Assembly (NCBI GenBank): GCA_025041175.1
Contig: JAKCFJ010000002.1
Location: 62,001-126,000 of the forward strand
Source: Halobacteriales archaeon YIM A00010
Lineage (GTDB): Archaea; Halobacteriota; Halobacteria; Halobacteriales; Haloarculaceae
Length of the DNA stretch: 64,000 nucleotides
Reading direction: 5' to 3'
Part shown: piece by piece, positions 3,726 through 56,489 of the stretch
Layout: each line of letters opens with the position of its first letter
Position numbering within the stretch: the first letter of the stretch is position 1
The notes under the pieces: generated by a model
Databases searched by the model: none
Seen by the model: the letters and a program-made list of their open reading frames with translations, nothing else
Told to the model about the DNA's origin: nothing
Translations under genes and position numbers: made by a program

Positions 3726-3826
3726 ATACTGTCGGACAGAGATGCTTGCATATCAGATGTTGGTGAACCGCCAGACAGCAACTGGATATTCCGTCTCATT
3801 CCTTATGTGGCTCTGTCCGACAGTAT
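3726..3826. repeat. Family A palindromic element, copy A1
   Basis: 101 bp bounded by ATACTGTCGGACAG and its inverse CTGTCCGACAGTAT. The inner part (GGTGAACCG, AGACAGCAACTGGATA) matches copies A4 and A5 closely. No coding capacity; it looks like a MITE. Confidence 0.85.
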
Positions 3827-4552: not shown

Positions 4553-4696
4553 TCTCCTAGTAGAATCAATAGTAATACTTCTATGATGTGATAGCCAATC
4601 AAAGAGCGTGAGTCATTAATTTTGGTATAGTTATATTTTTGGTATATTTGCTATCTATAGCTATAACTAGGGAAATAGATAGCAATATTATTTATT

Positions 4697-5157
4697 ATGG
4701 TCAACTCTCAAGCTATGATCGGGAGGAAATATGAACGCCAATCCAATGAACACACATACACTGATGTTGCATTACTCGTTGTCCGGATACTCCTCGGATT
4801 CGAATTACTATGGCATGGCCTGCCGAAACTTATCGATCCCGCAGCTGCAGGAGAGAAATTTGTCGGGATGGGATTTCCTGGGATGCTTGCACCTGTTATC
4901 GGTGTTCTCGAGGTGGGAGCGGCTGCACTGATACTCGTGGGATATTTAACTCCTATGGCCATCATCGTGGCGTTTGCTATCATTGCCGTGGCATTGGTAG
5001 CAGTCCAATGCCGAAGGGCGGTGCCCATGCTGCCCTTGAGAGGGATGCCCTTATCCTCACGGCAATGGTGGTCCTACTAGCCTTTGGACCCGGAAGACTC
5101 TCAACCGAAAATAAGCTTCCACAACTAACATTTCTCTCAAGAAAGACGGAAGGATGA
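4697..5157 (+). pseudogene. DoxX family membrane protein, frameshifted
   Basis: The first frame, from ATG 4697, gives VRILLGFELLWHGLPKL, FVGMGFPGM, a helix ending APVIGVLEVGAAALILVG and YLTPMAIIVAF, which is typical DoxX (small redox-linked membrane protein). Around 5000-5010 the frame is lost; the DoxX ending continues in the next frame as ALERDALILTAMVVLLAFG followed by PGRLSTENK. A single-base indel would explain this. DoxX proteins have four helices; here the fourth is read only after the shift. It is either a recent pseudogene or a sequencing error. Confidence 0.75.
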
Positions 5158-5414
5158 CTTCCCACCGACCGAAACGGGTATGCTAGCACTATAGTAAAGA
5201 GACCAGCATTGTCGGATAGATGTTATTTACTCTTATCTCAGAGTGAAGAAATCGAAATCCGGTCTTATCCATCCATAGCACTGCTTGGACCAAACATTTA
5301 CCACCCTGTCTGCTCATCAGTATATCACGTTTACAGAGCTCGTCCCCAAATGAGTGTACCCCACTTCGTGAAAGACCTGTTTCCCGCGGATCGCGTGAAC
5401 GCGCACACCGAGAG

Positions 5415-5717
5415 GTGGCCTCGTCGGTTAGCGCTGCTCGGTGGTCTCACCCTGATCAGCTCGAAACGGTTCTGGGCCGTCGGTATCGGAAACGACGAAC
5501 GGAGGAAACGAGACGAGCGTACATCCAAGACATTCAACAGACAACGCAACCGGACGAACGGTTAGATCGACTGCTACAGATTTACGAACAGACAGTCTAC
5601 AAAGGTGAAATATCACAGAAGCACGCAGACGAGGCACGAGAAATAGCCACCCACATCATTAGGGAGAACTCGCTCGTCACGAGATGGAGAACCGAGTACT
5701 CCCCTGATGTAGACTGA
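5415..5717 (+). CDS. Hypothetical protein, uncertain
   Basis: About 100 residues. The second half (QTTQPDERLDRLLQIYEQT, KGEISQKHADEAREIATHII) has the charge pattern and helical periodicity of a real soluble protein. The first 35 residues are less convincing, and a neighbouring frame starting at 5350 (MSVPHFVKDLF) may be the true N-terminus before a frameshift. No family recognised. Confidence 0.3.
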   Translation: MASSVSAARWSHPDQLETVLGRRYRKRRTEETRRAYIQDIQQTTQPDERLDRLLQIYEQTVYKGEISQKHADEAREIATHIIRENSLVTRWRTEYSPDVD

Positions 5718-5824
5718 TATAGTACAGACAGCACTCATCCCACACACTCCTAGACAGCATCGAGAGCAATAGATGACAGATACCTCGATCGAGAACGGCC
5801 GGGAGAAGGCCGTGTTTACCGCCG

Positions 5825-6427
5825 TCAGTTCGGGTTGTACTCGATCGTTCCCGTCCAGACGCCGTACACGTCGCCGTACTCACTGTCGCGGTCGACGAGG
5901 AGTACCTTCACTTCGAGCGTTCCGGGATCGAACTGTTCGAGCCCCTCCTCCTGCACGGTGATGTTGAACGTTTCGTACTCCTGGTCCTGTCGCGGATCGA
6001 GGATGGCCGATCGCTCGACCAGCGTGCCGTCGATTTCGATGAGGAAATACGGCTCCCCGATCACGTCACCGTAATCCGGGGGATCGATGTCTTCCATCGT
6101 CGTGTTGGCGGTGATTGCCAGATTGAAGTTGGATACACCGCTCCCGTTTTCGGAATCCGTTTGGTCCACGAACTCGACGCCATCGATCCGTTCGTCCTCG
6201 ATCTTATCCTCGGTCGGTTTGTTCGGCGTTTGTGGCGCATTCCACTCCGAGGATCCGGGGGCCGTTTTGACGACCGTCGTTGGAGTGGGTGATGGAGTCT
6301 CGGCTGTCGTGGACGGCGTATCCGTTGTCTCTGGTGTCGAGGAACTAGTCATAGAATCGATACTACTACACCCCGCTAATGCGACGACAATGACGAGGGC
6401 AAGCACCGCGAGACGATTCACGTTCAT
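5825..6427 (-). CDS. Secreted lipoprotein, function unknown
   Basis: 200 residues. The N-terminus MNVNRLAVLALVIVVALAGC ends in a lipobox (LAGC, Cys 20), so it should be exported and lipid-anchored outside the membrane. A Ser/Thr/Pro-rich linker (about 25-60) is typical of haloarchaeal surface lipoproteins. The rest is acidic and beta-rich (FNLAITANTTMEDIDPPDYG, VWTGTIEYNPN). It stands alone; the nearest gene, the wHTH regulator, is 300 bp upstream on the same strand. Confidence 0.75.
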   Translation of the reverse strand: MNVNRLAVLALVIVVALAGCSSIDSMTSSSTPETTDTPSTTAETPSPTPTTVVKTAPGSSEWNAPQTPNKPTEDKIEDERIDGVEFVDQTDSENGSGVSNFNLAITANTTMEDIDPPDYGDVIGEPYFLIEIDGTLVERSAILDPRQDQEYETFNITVQEEGLEQFDPGTLEVKVLLVDRDSEYGDVYGVWTGTIEYNPN

Positions 6428-7952: not shown

Positions 7953-8053
7953 ATACTGTCGGACAGAGCCACGGATGGATTGAGACGGAATATCCAGCTG
8001 CTGTCCGGCGGTTCATCGGCATCTGATATTCAATCACCTCTGTCCGACAGTAT
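7953..8053. repeat. Family A palindromic element, copy A2
   Basis: 101 bp with the family ends; inner part in the opposite orientation to A1 (CGGAATATCCAGCTGCTGTC). Its right end runs into the dehalogenase: the last T of the element is the first base of the RC stop triplet TCA at 8053-8055. Confidence 0.85.
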
Positions 8054-18880: not shown

Positions 18881-19348
18881 ATGACGACTGACACCGCTGT
18901 CGGCTATATCCGTCTTTCACAGGACGTGAAATCCCTTGACCGCCAGCGCCAGGATGTTGAGGAATACATCAACAAGAATGGCTACCCGCTCGATGAGATC
19001 TACAACGAAGGCAAGCGAACGTCTGGCTTCGATGCCGACCGCCCGGAGTACACGGCTCTCCTCGATCACATAGAGGGTGAGAGCATCGACGTGGTGATCA
19101 TCCCGAATCTCTCACGGCTCTCTCGGGATCGGAAAGAACGGTTGCGGCTCCTCCTCAATCTCGACGCCATCGGGGTGCAGCTCCACTCCGTCGACCTCGA
19201 TGACGAACCGGATTGGGGGCACCCTCTCGAACCACAATACAATAGCCTCCCTGGGCGTGTACCACACAGTAGATCACTCATGTCCCAGAACGATACCGAC
19301 GCTACGCTTTCAGCCATATTCAAGGAGGGCCATCAAGCAGTCCGATAA
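18881..19348 (+). pseudogene. Serine recombinase (resolvase), catalytic domain only
   Basis: The N-terminal 115 residues are a resolvase catalytic domain: AVGYIRLSQDVKSLDRQRQD (Ser about 13), GKRTSGFDADRPEYTALLDH and VVIIPNLSRLSRDRKERLRL. After about residue 118 (19230) similarity ends and the frame runs on to 19348 without sense; the DNA-binding domain is lost. The ATG overlaps the TGA of a 20-residue fragment (FEWTVKSGNTFELRVIKDDD) left after repeat B2, which suggests an original two-gene operon. Confidence 0.75.
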
Positions 19349-23885: not shown

Positions 23886-24503
23886 TTGTCCCGTTCAGCC
23901 ATCACAGATCTAGCCGGTGGGACGATATTTTATGAGGAATGCGCGGTAATTACCGCACGAGGTACTGACGAAACAGCGTTTCTCTCGAGTTCGATTCCGC
24001 TACAGACCTCCGGTCATAACGCCATATCTACGCTTCGGGAAGGGGAATCACACTGGTTGGTCCTCGGCTACGATCACGAACTCTCGATAGAACCAGCGAA
24101 CCATCGACACGTTCGAGAGGAAGTCGTTTGCTTTTGGCGCGACTGGACACACGAGTGTTCTGACACCGATGAGTGTCCGATCGGTGGGCCGTGGCATCAG
24201 ATCGCTGTGCGATCAGCGTCGGCTCTGAAGTTGTTGATTCATCACGAAACTGGGGCGATCTGTGCAGCGCCGACGACATCGCTCCCTGAAGATATCGGCG
24301 GCGTGCGAAACTGGGACTACCGATACAACTGGATTAGAGATGCCGCCTTCACGGTACGAGTCGGTGACTATGGGTCCCCACTGGCCGTACTTACGGCGCT
24401 GTTTCTCCTTGGCGTCGTCTATGCGGGAGGATATTACCTCGTATACGAGAACGGATATCAACGGTTGAAAAGCCGGTATATAGGCAGTGATACCCGGGGC
24501 TGA
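23886..24503 (+). pseudogene. Glycoside hydrolase family 15 (glucoamylase) fragment
   Basis: Residues about 25-155 match the middle of archaeal GH15 proteins: ETAFLSSSIPLQTSG, WHQIAVRSASALKLLIHHET, AAPTTSLPEDIGGVRNWDYR and YNWIRDAAFTV, the start of the (alpha/alpha)6 barrel. The N-terminal start is only a TTG and the catalytic C-terminal half is missing. From about 24354 the frame runs into unrelated sequence with one membrane helix (AVLTALFLLGVVYAGGYYLV), perhaps the end of another protein. A chimeric leftover rather than a working glucoamylase. Confidence 0.7.
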
Positions 24504-24740
24504 ACGCACTGCTCGTCGATCACTGAGATAGCCCGCGCAAAATAATGGAAGCGAACAGGCCCTTGTCTATATCTCCAGCTTATCGCTAGAATCACGTACA
24601 GGACTACCAGCACACCCAACGTTTTTTACGCCTAAAACCCGACAGGTCCTGTCTTAGCCCCCGTTCTGGTCCTCACCCACGCGTCTATCGCTCCCGCCGC
24701 CATACGATTCCACATCCTCCACTAACGTATGAAGAAGTGG

Positions 24741-24794
24741 GCTTTTGCACGGTGTGTGCAAACGGAATTCCGTTTGCACACACCGTGCAAAAGC
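24741..24794. repeat. 54-bp perfect palindrome made of two nested hairpins
   Basis: The 27-bp arm starting GCTTTTGCACGGTGTGTGCA is followed directly by its exact inverse; the centre is CGGAATTCCG. Each arm is itself a hairpin (TTTGCAC-GGTGT-GTGCAAA). It lies 25 bp before a serine recombinase start, so a recombination or regulatory site is possible. Confidence 0.9.
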
Positions 24795-24818
24795 TCTATT
24801 CCTTATATGCTAGCCGAG

Positions 24819-24887
24819 ATGTGCAATAGTGTGGCTACGGGAACGATCTACGTGCGCGTGAGTACCAACGAAAACGACGGTTGTTGA
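24819..24887 (+). pseudogene. Serine recombinase, first 22 residues
   Basis: MCNSVATGTIYVRVSTNEND then GC and a stop. ATGTIYVRVSTNE is the start of a resolvase/invertase catalytic domain with its active-site serine. The rest is gone. Differs from the recombinase at 18881. Confidence 0.55.
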
Positions 24888-25463
24888 TCACGGATACGGC
24901 GAAATCACGTTACCCTCGGTGGAAGGCGTTCCGAGGCAAGAAGAGGCTGTGACTGGACACCCCGATAGATCACACTCTAGCATATACTATACGGGATCTG
25001 TCGGAGTGCGTAGTGACGATGACTCTTCAGTGCGCCACTGCCCTCCTGACACAGTGATTCTGCCCGCTCCCGAGGAAGTCGCGGCCAGGCCACCACCAGA
25101 CTGATACGGGCTGTAACCGACCTGTCGGCCCTCATCTATGAGGATCCCTTTTCGCTCGGCAGTCTGGTGTGAGTCTCCTCTCGTCGATAGGCCAGGTGTG
25201 GCTTCACTCGATGCTCCTCTCCTTAACTGATGTCGGCTAGGTAGATTTCTAATGCACGATCAGTTACGGAATTTAGATTGAAAGCCCAAATTCCCGGAAG
25301 GCTGTATATGGCTCTGGTGAATCACTAGGCTGCGTCGACTTCCGGGGTAAGATCCGGTGGAGCGCCTTCGTATGCTAATTGAAATTGTCTTAGCTGGTGA
25401 CCAATATACACCGAGTGAAGATTTCTATATTTCATTGTATGAAATCATGGCGCATGTCCCACA
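24888..25463. other. Gene-free stretch with repeat B4
   Basis: No gene recognised apart from repeat B4 at 25227-25358. Confidence 0.4.
25227..25358. repeat. Family B half-element fused to another sequence (B4), inverted copy at 39286
   Basis: The left half is family B (CTGATGTCGGCTAGGTAGAT). The right half (CTCTGGTGAATCACTAGG, GGTAAGATCCGGT) is not. The whole 132 bp recurs inverted at 39286-39416 with about two differences. Confidence 0.85.
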
Positions 25464-27842: not shown

Positions 27843-28535
27843 TCAGATTAGCTGATTCCATGCAAAGGCGAATGATCTGAGCCACTCGTTTGCAGTTTCT
27901 GCGTGGGCATTGCTGAAGCAGTGTGAGAACGAAGAAGTTCTCCGTTTTATCTCACGAAAGACACGTTCGACGCTGTTCCGATTTCCATGACGTTCGTATC
28001 TGAAATCGAAGCCGTGTCGACGACACGCATGTTGTACTGAATGTGAATCATCAACGAGAACTACAGCGTTCACAAGACGCATGCGTCTTGTGTGCCCACG
28101 AGAACTGCATGCAGTTCTCGGGTCATCGTCAACATCATGTTTCTCAGCAATCTTAGTGAGAAATGAATGGGCGAGAGCCTTATTCGTGGTCGGCTCAAGC
28201 GTTGTATGGAGCGATTCGTTCGTGTCAGGATCAACTGCAGCGTACAGCCAATACTGCTCATCGTTGAGTCGGATCACGGTTTCGTCAACCGCAATGTGAT
28301 CCGGACTTCGTCCACCTTCGGGCTGTAGATCGGCCTTGTGAACCCAATTGTGAACGGTCGAACGAGGCCGTTCAACACCGAATACCTCAAGAATAGCAAC
28401 GGTATTCGAAAGAGATAGACCAGCAAGATGGAGCTGAATACCGAGCTTCATCAACAGTCGCGGTGTTGCTTCTCGCTCCATAAAATTCACGTCGATGTCG
28501 TCCAAACAACCGTTGAGGCGGTCGTTTTTGGGCAT
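27843..28535 (-). CDS. IS6-family DDE transposase with a 19-residue insert
   Basis: 230 residues. HTH part LHLAGLSLSNTVAILEVFGV and RPRSTVHNWVHKADLQPEGG; catalytic core HIAVDETVIRLNDEQYWLYA (D1), AVVLVDDSHSVQHACRRHG (D2) and RHGNRNSVERVFREIKRRTS (E). All three acidic residues are present. Between KHDVDD and AVVLVDD there are 19 extra residues (DPRTACSSRGHTRRMRLVN) coded by two perfect palindromes. The decayed copy at 8979 lacks them. The frame is kept; whether the enzyme still works is unknown. Confidence 0.9.
   Translation of the reverse strand: MPKNDRLNGCLDDIDVNFMEREATPRLLMKLGIQLHLAGLSLSNTVAILEVFGVERPRSTVHNWVHKADLQPEGGRSPDHIAVDETVIRLNDEQYWLYAAVDPDTNESLHTTLEPTTNKALAHSFLTKIAEKHDVDDDPRTACSSRGHTRRMRLVNAVVLVDDSHSVQHACRRHGFDFRYERHGNRNSVERVFREIKRRTSSFSHCFSNAHAETANEWLRSFAFAWNQLI
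28068..28124. repeat. Twin-hairpin insert in the IS6 transposase (57 bp)
   Basis: Two perfect 22-bp palindromes, 28071-28092 (CACAAGACGCATGCGTCTTG plus TG) and 28099-28120 (CGAGAACTGCATGCAGTTCT plus CG), joined by 6 bp. On the transposase strand it starts GACCC and ends GAAC. Compare 39020-39079 and 56679-56732. Confidence 0.9.
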
Positions 28536-28584: not shown

Positions 28585-29079
28585 CGCCAGTTCCCCAGGG
28601 AATACATCAATATGATTGCTCCGCCTGCCTCTTTCCTATGTTTACTGGAAACGATGGGAGGAGAGTGTCATCCTAGACCTTCCTTCCCAGTACTCTATCG
28701 ATATTATGTACTATCAATATATTAGTGGAAATGGTGGGGTCTAACGCACGTGCTCTTGTGTAGTCTGGCGGAATAGAAGGGATGTTCCACTTTGTCCGTG
28801 TCTTCACCTGGAATATCGTGGGCTGGTCGTGAATCGGAACGACTACGCAAACAAGAGTCACGCCTTGCACCCTCAACACGGCCTCACGCGTACGGTGAAG
28901 AAGTTAAGCGTTGGGACGAGAATTCCGCGAACGTTGCGGCGACCACGGGTGTAGGGATCATGCCCATCCGGTTCAAGTACGAGGCTCATGTCGAGAATGT
29001 ATAATTCCGTTGTGTGCTCGTCGACAATCCATTCGAGGTGCAGTGACAATTCTCGGAATCGTAGGAGTGGCTTACCAAT
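28585..29079. other. Gene-free stretch
   Basis: Nothing recognised; open frames are short and carry no family motif. Confidence 0.4.
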
Positions 29080-29190
29080 CTGAAGTCGGCTAGGTAAGAT
29101 TCCTAATGCACGGTCCCTCTCGAAATCTAGGTCGTCAGTCCAAATTTCGCAGGTAGCTATGCATTAGGAATCGTACCTGCCCATCATCAG
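29080..29190. repeat. Family B element, copy B6
   Basis: 111 bp: CTGAAGTCGGCTAGGTAAGA ... TCGTACCTGCCCATCATCAG. The inner CGAAATCTA/AAATTTCG gives a partial hairpin. Confidence 0.8.
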
Positions 29191-30972: not shown

Positions 30973-31081
30973 CTGAAGTCGGCTAGGTATATTTCTAATG
31001 TACAATTGATCTTGAAATTCATCTCGGAAGTCTATGTTTCGCGAGTAGCCGTGCATGATGAATCCACCTAGCCGACCTCAG
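30973..31081. repeat. Family B element, copy B9
   Basis: 109 bp: CTGAAGTCGGCTAGGTATAT to CCACCTAGCCGACCTCAG. It ends 43 bp before the hydrolase start and so forms part of that gene's upstream region. Confidence 0.85.
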
Positions 31082-56020: not shown

Positions 56021-56345
56021 AAGTGTTCAGAAGGACTAGGGGGTCTACTCACTCAACTCCGTCGGTGCTCGCTGTCGTTTCGGTTGACGTGATCGATCAC
56101 GCTCCAATCACTGATCGTCACTTGCTGTTCGACGCTGTCCGACTCCGAAGTCGCCCCCGCTCTTATCGGCTGCCTAGATCGTTACATTCGTTCGGTTTGT
56201 CGTTTGTGGTGACTACTGATTTGAGCTCCTGATACCGATCGCTGTGCCGATCATCTTGGTCTGTTACACGCACCTGTCTCCTCTCGGCAACTACCCCCGA
56301 GGACCGGCAAAACAGAACGGTTCGTGAAACTCCAGAGCAGTCGTC

Positions 56346-56445
56346 ATACTGTCGGACAGAGATAGTTGAATATCGGCTGCTGGTGACCGCTAGACAGCAA
56401 CTGGATATTCCGTCTCAGTCCGTACGTGACTCTGTCCGACAGTAT
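56346..56445. repeat. Family A palindromic element, copy A4
   Basis: 100 bp, ends ATACTGTCGGACAG/CTGTCCGACAGTAT; the inner part is very like A1. It lies just before the decayed IS6 copy. Confidence 0.85.
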
Positions 56446-56489
56446 CACTCAACGACCGTGCCGCTACTCACAACAGTCACTATCAGCTC

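Follow-up and report, generated by a model that had tools for sequence, protein, structure and literature searches.

A 54-bp perfect palindrome in a haloarchaeal genome as the probable head-to-head seam of two serine recombinase 5′ regions

The palindrome lies between two dead recombinase starts

How does a genome come to hold a perfect, spacerless palindrome whose arms are themselves hairpins, and is such a structure an element in its own right? In the window, by which we mean the whole 64,000-nucleotide stretch of DNA analysed here, the structure consists of GCTTTTGCACGGTGTGTGCAAACGGAA followed directly by TTCCGTTTGCACACACCGTGCAAAAGC, that is, two 27-bp arms with a spacer of 0, a hairpin TTTGCAC-GGTGT-GTGCAAA inside each arm and CGGAATTCCG at the centre (Table 1), just as the initial annotation had described it. 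Ranked by length it is first among the perfect palindromes of the window, the runner-up being 22 bp long, and the maxima in 20 first-order Markov shuffles were 14–22 bp; its length is far beyond what chance explains. A strand of the palindrome folds into one 26-bp stem (–34.6 kcal/mol, z = –12), and the exact 54-mer is present in 1 copy in the 5.97-Mb genome.

The palindrome is the core of a longer, imperfect inverted repeat formed by two recombinase 5′ regions that point away from each other, with an identity of 27/27 over the inner 27 nt and 52/74 (70%) over the outer 74 nt. On the right the reading frame ends after 22 codons and on the left the start is decayed; judged from these reading frames, the recombinase genes on both sides are dead. 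A recombinase N-terminus had been placed at 24819 in the initial annotation, and a recombinase start is indeed present there, but it belongs to a fragment whose homologous start is the downstream GTG and which soon runs into a stop. The minus-strand start in the left flank and the extension of the repeat to ∼101 nt on each side were absent from that annotation.

Table 1. Features of the palindrome and its surroundings, in window coordinates
Feature	Position	Strand	Basis or remark
Perfect palindrome, 54 bp, H3-H2:H2-H3	24741..24794	.	Sequence and inverted-repeat comparison
Central 24-bp dyad H2:H2, GTGCAAACGGAATTCCGTTTGCAC	24756..24779	.	Symmetrical form of the family site GTGCANAAGGA-NN-TCCTTNTGCAC
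Central AT dinucleotide, self-complementary	24767..24768	.	Candidate 2-bp crossover position, a role suggested by the serine-recombinase mechanism
Left third half-site H3, part of the left recombinase remnant	24743..24755	-	Site alignment
Right third half-site H3, ACACCGTGCAAAA	24780..24792	+	∼11 bp upstream of the TATA-like box; site alignment
Putative TATA-like box TTATAT	24803..24808	+	26 bp before GTG 24831
Segment copied from the single-site locus G000:C2 ∼610.2–610.6 kb (L004/L013)	24360..24779	.	98.3% identical
Imperfect inverted repeat of two recombinase 5′ regions, whole	24667..24867	.	∼101 nt each side
Serine recombinase fragment MCNSVATGTIYVRVSTNENDGC*, dead	24819..24887	+	ATG 24819; homologous start GTG 24831; stop 24885–24887
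Decayed second recombinase start, MAAGAIDAWVRTRT	24667..24703	-	ATG 24703–24701, reads leftwards

The normal site of the recombinase family is single

The initial annotation had read the palindrome as a recombination or recombinase-binding site and had suggested looking for the dyad upstream of full-length homologues of the recombinase. Upstream of three such homologues from two genera, Halocatena (L008 and L018) and Halorubrum sp. CBA1125 (L019), we found a 24-bp dyad and a third half-site but no 54-bp dyad. The site occupies the same upstream position in all three, with the ATG 76 bp downstream of its first base. The proposal therefore stands insofar as dyad and third half-site are conserved before full-length homologues, but the 54-bp palindrome is not the site of the family, as the homologues are single-site.

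Aligned on the recombinase, all copies show GTGCANAAGGA-NN-TCCTTNTGCAC (half-sites H1 and H2) with few departures, and next to it, in all copies but one, A-N-A-C-Y-GTGCAAAA (H3), followed by a TATA-like box. H1 and H2 together (H1:H2, the colon marking the centre) make up a dyad of 24 bp, variable at its two central positions, just upstream of the TATA box, and the same single H1:H2 site with H3 also precedes decayed copies of the recombinase. As for accessory elements, H3 is the sole extra half-site identified, in most copies. Over 10 other copies, a small sample with some decayed members, mean pairwise identity is 0.91 for H1, 0.81 for H2 and 0.82 for H3, compared with 0.56 for the central dinucleotide and 0.33–0.49 for the outer flank. 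Serine recombinases act as dimers on partially palindromic sites and cleave at the 2-bp centre (PMC11607074), and conserved arms around a variable dinucleotide are the pattern expected for a serine-recombinase crossover site. The H1:H2 dyad is probably both crossover site and operator, with conservation and position pointing to binding of the half-sites by the recombinase. H3 precedes the TATA-like box by ∼11 bp, which makes it plausible that the normal recombinase gene is autorepressed.

Read with these half-sites, the nested hairpins of the palindrome resolve into H2 and H3 elements back to back, and its central dyad into H2 facing H2. Outward from the centre, either side runs through H2, H3, promoter and recombinase start, and H1 with its outer flank is absent on the left and on the right. 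The central dinucleotide elsewhere in the family copies is GT, TT, AC, AG or AT.

With 1–2 mismatches the arm sequence TTTTGCACGGTGTGTGCAAA recurs at five further places in the genome, four of which precede the starts of serine recombinase genes, whether intact or decayed, that point away from the hairpin; at the fifth (L007) a recombinase start is not recognisable. Within the window the half-site hairpin occurs nowhere else, contrary to an earlier suggestion that the palindrome might be a relative of twin-hairpin units. Scanning 391 Halobacteria genomes for the core (≤2 mismatches) returned Halocatena only, in a scan that either did not cover or missed the more diverged Halorubrum site.

The same genome encodes an intact recombinase of 270 aa (L008) on replicon C4, with a resolvase catalytic domain (Pfam PF00239, E 9e-28) and a catalytic-type RVS serine that is invariant in the family alignment. 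Its predicted model, of moderate confidence (mean pLDDT 68), has a long helix at 117–150 and helices at 174–212 in an HTH-like C-terminal part, and its Foldseek and phmmer neighbours are resolvases, invertases and serine integrases; none of the NCBIfam models scored above cut-off. With a catalytic domain and active-site serine, a long predicted E helix and a predicted C-terminal HTH, the L008-type protein has the make-up of a small serine recombinase. The Halocatena pleomorpha recombinase (L018) shares 86% protein identity with it and that of Halorubrum sp. CBA1125 (L019) 71% DNA identity. In the literature searched we found no study of this haloarchaeal serine recombinase family. A viral origin was considered and rejected: viral contigs are without a recombinase homologue and without the exact site, and phages offer only distant serine integrases.

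The two halves come from different copies and the arms were probably made perfect later

The left 420 bp differ at 7 positions from L004, a single-site copy on the same replicon, and the L004-like similarity stops 12 bp to the right of the palindrome centre. The right flank is most similar to L006 (82%) and to an H. salina copy, L075 (80%); a right-hand parent copy was searched for and none was found. With L004 on the left and L006/L075 nearest on the right, two different copies were involved. At ∼24360 the L004-derived segment is fused to a glycoside hydrolase 15 fragment-like ORF (23886–24360, NWIRDAAFTVR), which marks another breakpoint of the block that was duplicated.

Three of the 7 differences from L004 fall inside the 27-bp left arm (P = 0.007 for clustering), at 24754, 24763 and 24764, and each of them gives base pairing with the right arm. 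At 24764 the window departs from the family consensus and the polarity of change is clear; at 24754 the polarity is plausible, and at 24763 it runs the other way, L004 being the deviant copy there. Among other copies, identical 27-nt arms were seen in 0/45 pairs. As the arm differences restore pairing and no other pair of copies has identical arms, we read the perfection as secondary. It looks like arm-to-arm homogenisation through hairpin-templated (quasipalindrome) correction, and template switching is known to turn quasipalindromes perfect (PMC7202029).

Origin of the junction

We consider it quite probable that the palindrome is a rearrangement seam at which two diverged recombinase 5′ regions were fused head to head within the dyad; this reading builds on the observed anatomy, recombinase flanks, parent-like single-site copy and uniqueness of the palindrome. 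A normal gene would carry one three-half-site unit, with an H1 + H2 dyad around a 2-bp centre and H3 beside the promoter. If two such 5′ regions are joined inside the dyad, H1 and all beyond it will be lost and the H2-H3 halves will face each other. The joining would be recombinase excision between two divergently placed sites, and the arms would be made identical afterwards by hairpin-templated correction. For excision as the joining step we put the chances at about even.

Excision between divergent sites would be possible because serine recombinases take polarity only from the central dinucleotides, which must match and set polarity (PMC4111918, citing Ghosh et al. 2003). In H. pleomorpha (L018) two divergent recombinase 5′ regions are still 1.29 kb apart, and on one and the same strand both 24-mers have the sequence AAGGA-GT-TCCTT despite the inverted outer architecture. 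This GT/GT match on one strand, a single pair with a naive chance of ∼1 in 16, predicts that the cassette could be excised, leaving H3-H2:H2-H3 plus an H1:H1 circle. The self-complementary AT of the window would allow both orientations. Around the window no matching site pair survives, and the reciprocal H1:H1 product is not in the genome, which has 6 core sites only; this counts against excision, although it would be expected if the circle was lost. On C2 and C4 there are also divergent sites that lie far apart; these were considered as excision pairs and rejected, as their dinucleotides are unmatched (AT/GT, AA/GT).

The same fusion could also have arisen without the recombinase, through a template switch or short-homology join at the TTTGCAC shared by nearby inverted copies, again followed by arm correction. 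The dyad supplies 7–12 bp of inverted homology for such a join, quasipalindromes are well-documented places of template switching (PMC7202029), and the L004 similarity continues past the centre. Moreover, a rare C at position 8 of the L004 H1 corresponds to G in both window arms, which suggests that the breakpoint may lie 5–12 bp off centre; a cut at AT would account for this less well than joining by short homology or a template switch. This marker is not decisive, however, because arm conversion could also shift it, and a recombinase-free join gives no reason for the axis of symmetry to coincide exactly with the variable dinucleotide at the centre. We regard this route as a serious contender, if somewhat short of an even chance.

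Other explanations take the palindrome for something other than a seam. A selected functional element, a symmetrical high-affinity operator or attB-like site kept perfect for an active recombinase, would fit a perfect dyad built of family half-sites and the intact L008 recombinase on replicon C4, and Hin has a higher affinity for hixC, a composite site that is symmetrical (PMC2427008). But the scan of 391 Halobacteria genomes for H3-H2:H2-H3 found it in the window only and 0 times in the 390 others, the adjoining genes are both dead and the normal site of the family is imperfectly symmetrical, so that we think selection improbable. The palindrome could still be bound in trans by the intact L008 enzyme. 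An assembly fold-back, raised in the initial annotation and classically betrayed by a perfect spacerless palindrome, should give matching flanks, but here the two flanks disagree at 30% of positions and each is closest to another family copy; the involvement of two copies makes such an artefact very unlikely indeed. Hardly any weight falls on a MITE, an insertion-sequence end or a transcription terminator: short palindromic repeats are common in the genome, but the exact copy number is 1, a flanking target duplication was not seen, a T-run is absent and the palindrome sits between two promoters rather than behind genes. As a repeat family, too, the 54-bp palindrome was rejected, being single-copy in the genome and found in none of the 390 other Halobacteria genomes. 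On plasmids of other Halocatena and of Actinarchaeum, what resembles the junction amounts to no more than a single site or a piece of flank.

Read as a seam, an odd perfect palindrome becomes a readable history, diagnostic of the meeting of two recombinase sites, and this haloarchaeal serine recombinase family gains a defined, testable site, the GTGCANAAGGA-NN-TCCTTNTGCAC dyad plus a third half-site. If the excision reading is true, one archaeal cassette system would be seen occupied in H. pleomorpha and empty in the window strain. The wider form of this idea supposes that an archaeal cassette system driven by a serine recombinase operates on Halocatena replicons and that the window carries its empty (excised) site; H1-bounded toxin-like cassettes would enter or leave symmetrical H2:H2 sites between divergent recombinase genes, with the central dinucleotide alone setting polarity. 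This wider form is speculative and in our estimate rather unlikely.

Comparison with known systems

The palindrome adds a new instance rather than a new kind of element: site families of small serine recombinases and palindromic seams left by rearrangement are both already known, and nested hairpins need not mean a new element class. Like the window site, the hix sites of the Hin invertase have inverted half-sites around a 2-bp core and serve a small serine recombinase, and the composite hixC is symmetrical, as is the window core (PMC2427008, PMC4817059). hixC is man-made, with tighter Hin binding and slower inversion (PMC2427008). The sequences are, however, unrelated, and hix is 26 bp long compared with 24 bp here; in place of the Fis enhancer of hix the window family has its third half-site, and no invertible promoter has been shown. 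The res site I of Tn3/γδ and Sin resolvases also places its crossover dyad next to the recombinase gene and accessory half-sites in the promoter or close to it, but the window family has one extra half-site instead of a site II/III array, and no replicative transposon was identified (PMC9943657).

On the comparison of sequences, L018 follows the attL...attR logic of serine integrases, with H2:H1-cargo-H1:H2 and the same central GT on one strand, and the H2:H2 of the window resembles an empty attB. Unlike in serine-integrase att systems, the family recombinase, at 270 aa, is small and is encoded outside the cassette, and H1 and H2 are almost identical in sequence. As in quasipalindrome correction, the differences from the sister copy are located in the arm, where they make pairing perfect again, although here they amount to two or three bases read against one sister copy (PMC7202029).

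Related and neighbouring loci

The L018 cassette (4633–5948 of that locus, H. pleomorpha NZ_RRCH01000041.1) holds a winged-helix-like ORF (5108–5503) and a MazF-like ORF (5496–5840), both named from inspection. In H. salina (L065) a module 95% identical to this winged-helix/MazF-like pair stands beside one site.

The sequences outside H1 are of two recurring types, X (L004, L005, L007) and Y (L006, L008, L021, L014:4020–4112, L067:12971–13052, L082, L090). Both also follow the 3′ ends of genes from a second serine recombinase family (rec2), in some cases accompanied by one TTTTGCAC half-site, and in L097 an H3-H2-H1 region with a degenerate H1 lies between a rec2 3′ end and an X-like flank. 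These arrangements suggest that the dyad acts generally as a point of junction. The window itself contains a rec2-type serine recombinase fragment (28942–29055, minus strand; 50% over 38 aa) and a truncated serine recombinase ORF of 155 aa (18881–19348, plus strand).

Several other repeats are present in the window. A CTGAAGTCGGCTAGGTA...TAATGCA-related repeat with inverted ends, found at 25230–25265, 29080–29190 and 30973–31081, in the L004 flank and in further genome copies, looks like a MITE or insertion-sequence end. An inverted repeat of 16–19 bp, ATACTGTCGGACAGAG ... CTCTGTCCGACAGTAT, with 68–69 bp between the arms, recurs at 3726–3826, 7953–8053 and 56343–56448. Two 22-bp perfect palindromes, 28 bp apart (28071–28092 and 28099–28120), lie within a transposase-like ORF (27843–28535, minus strand).
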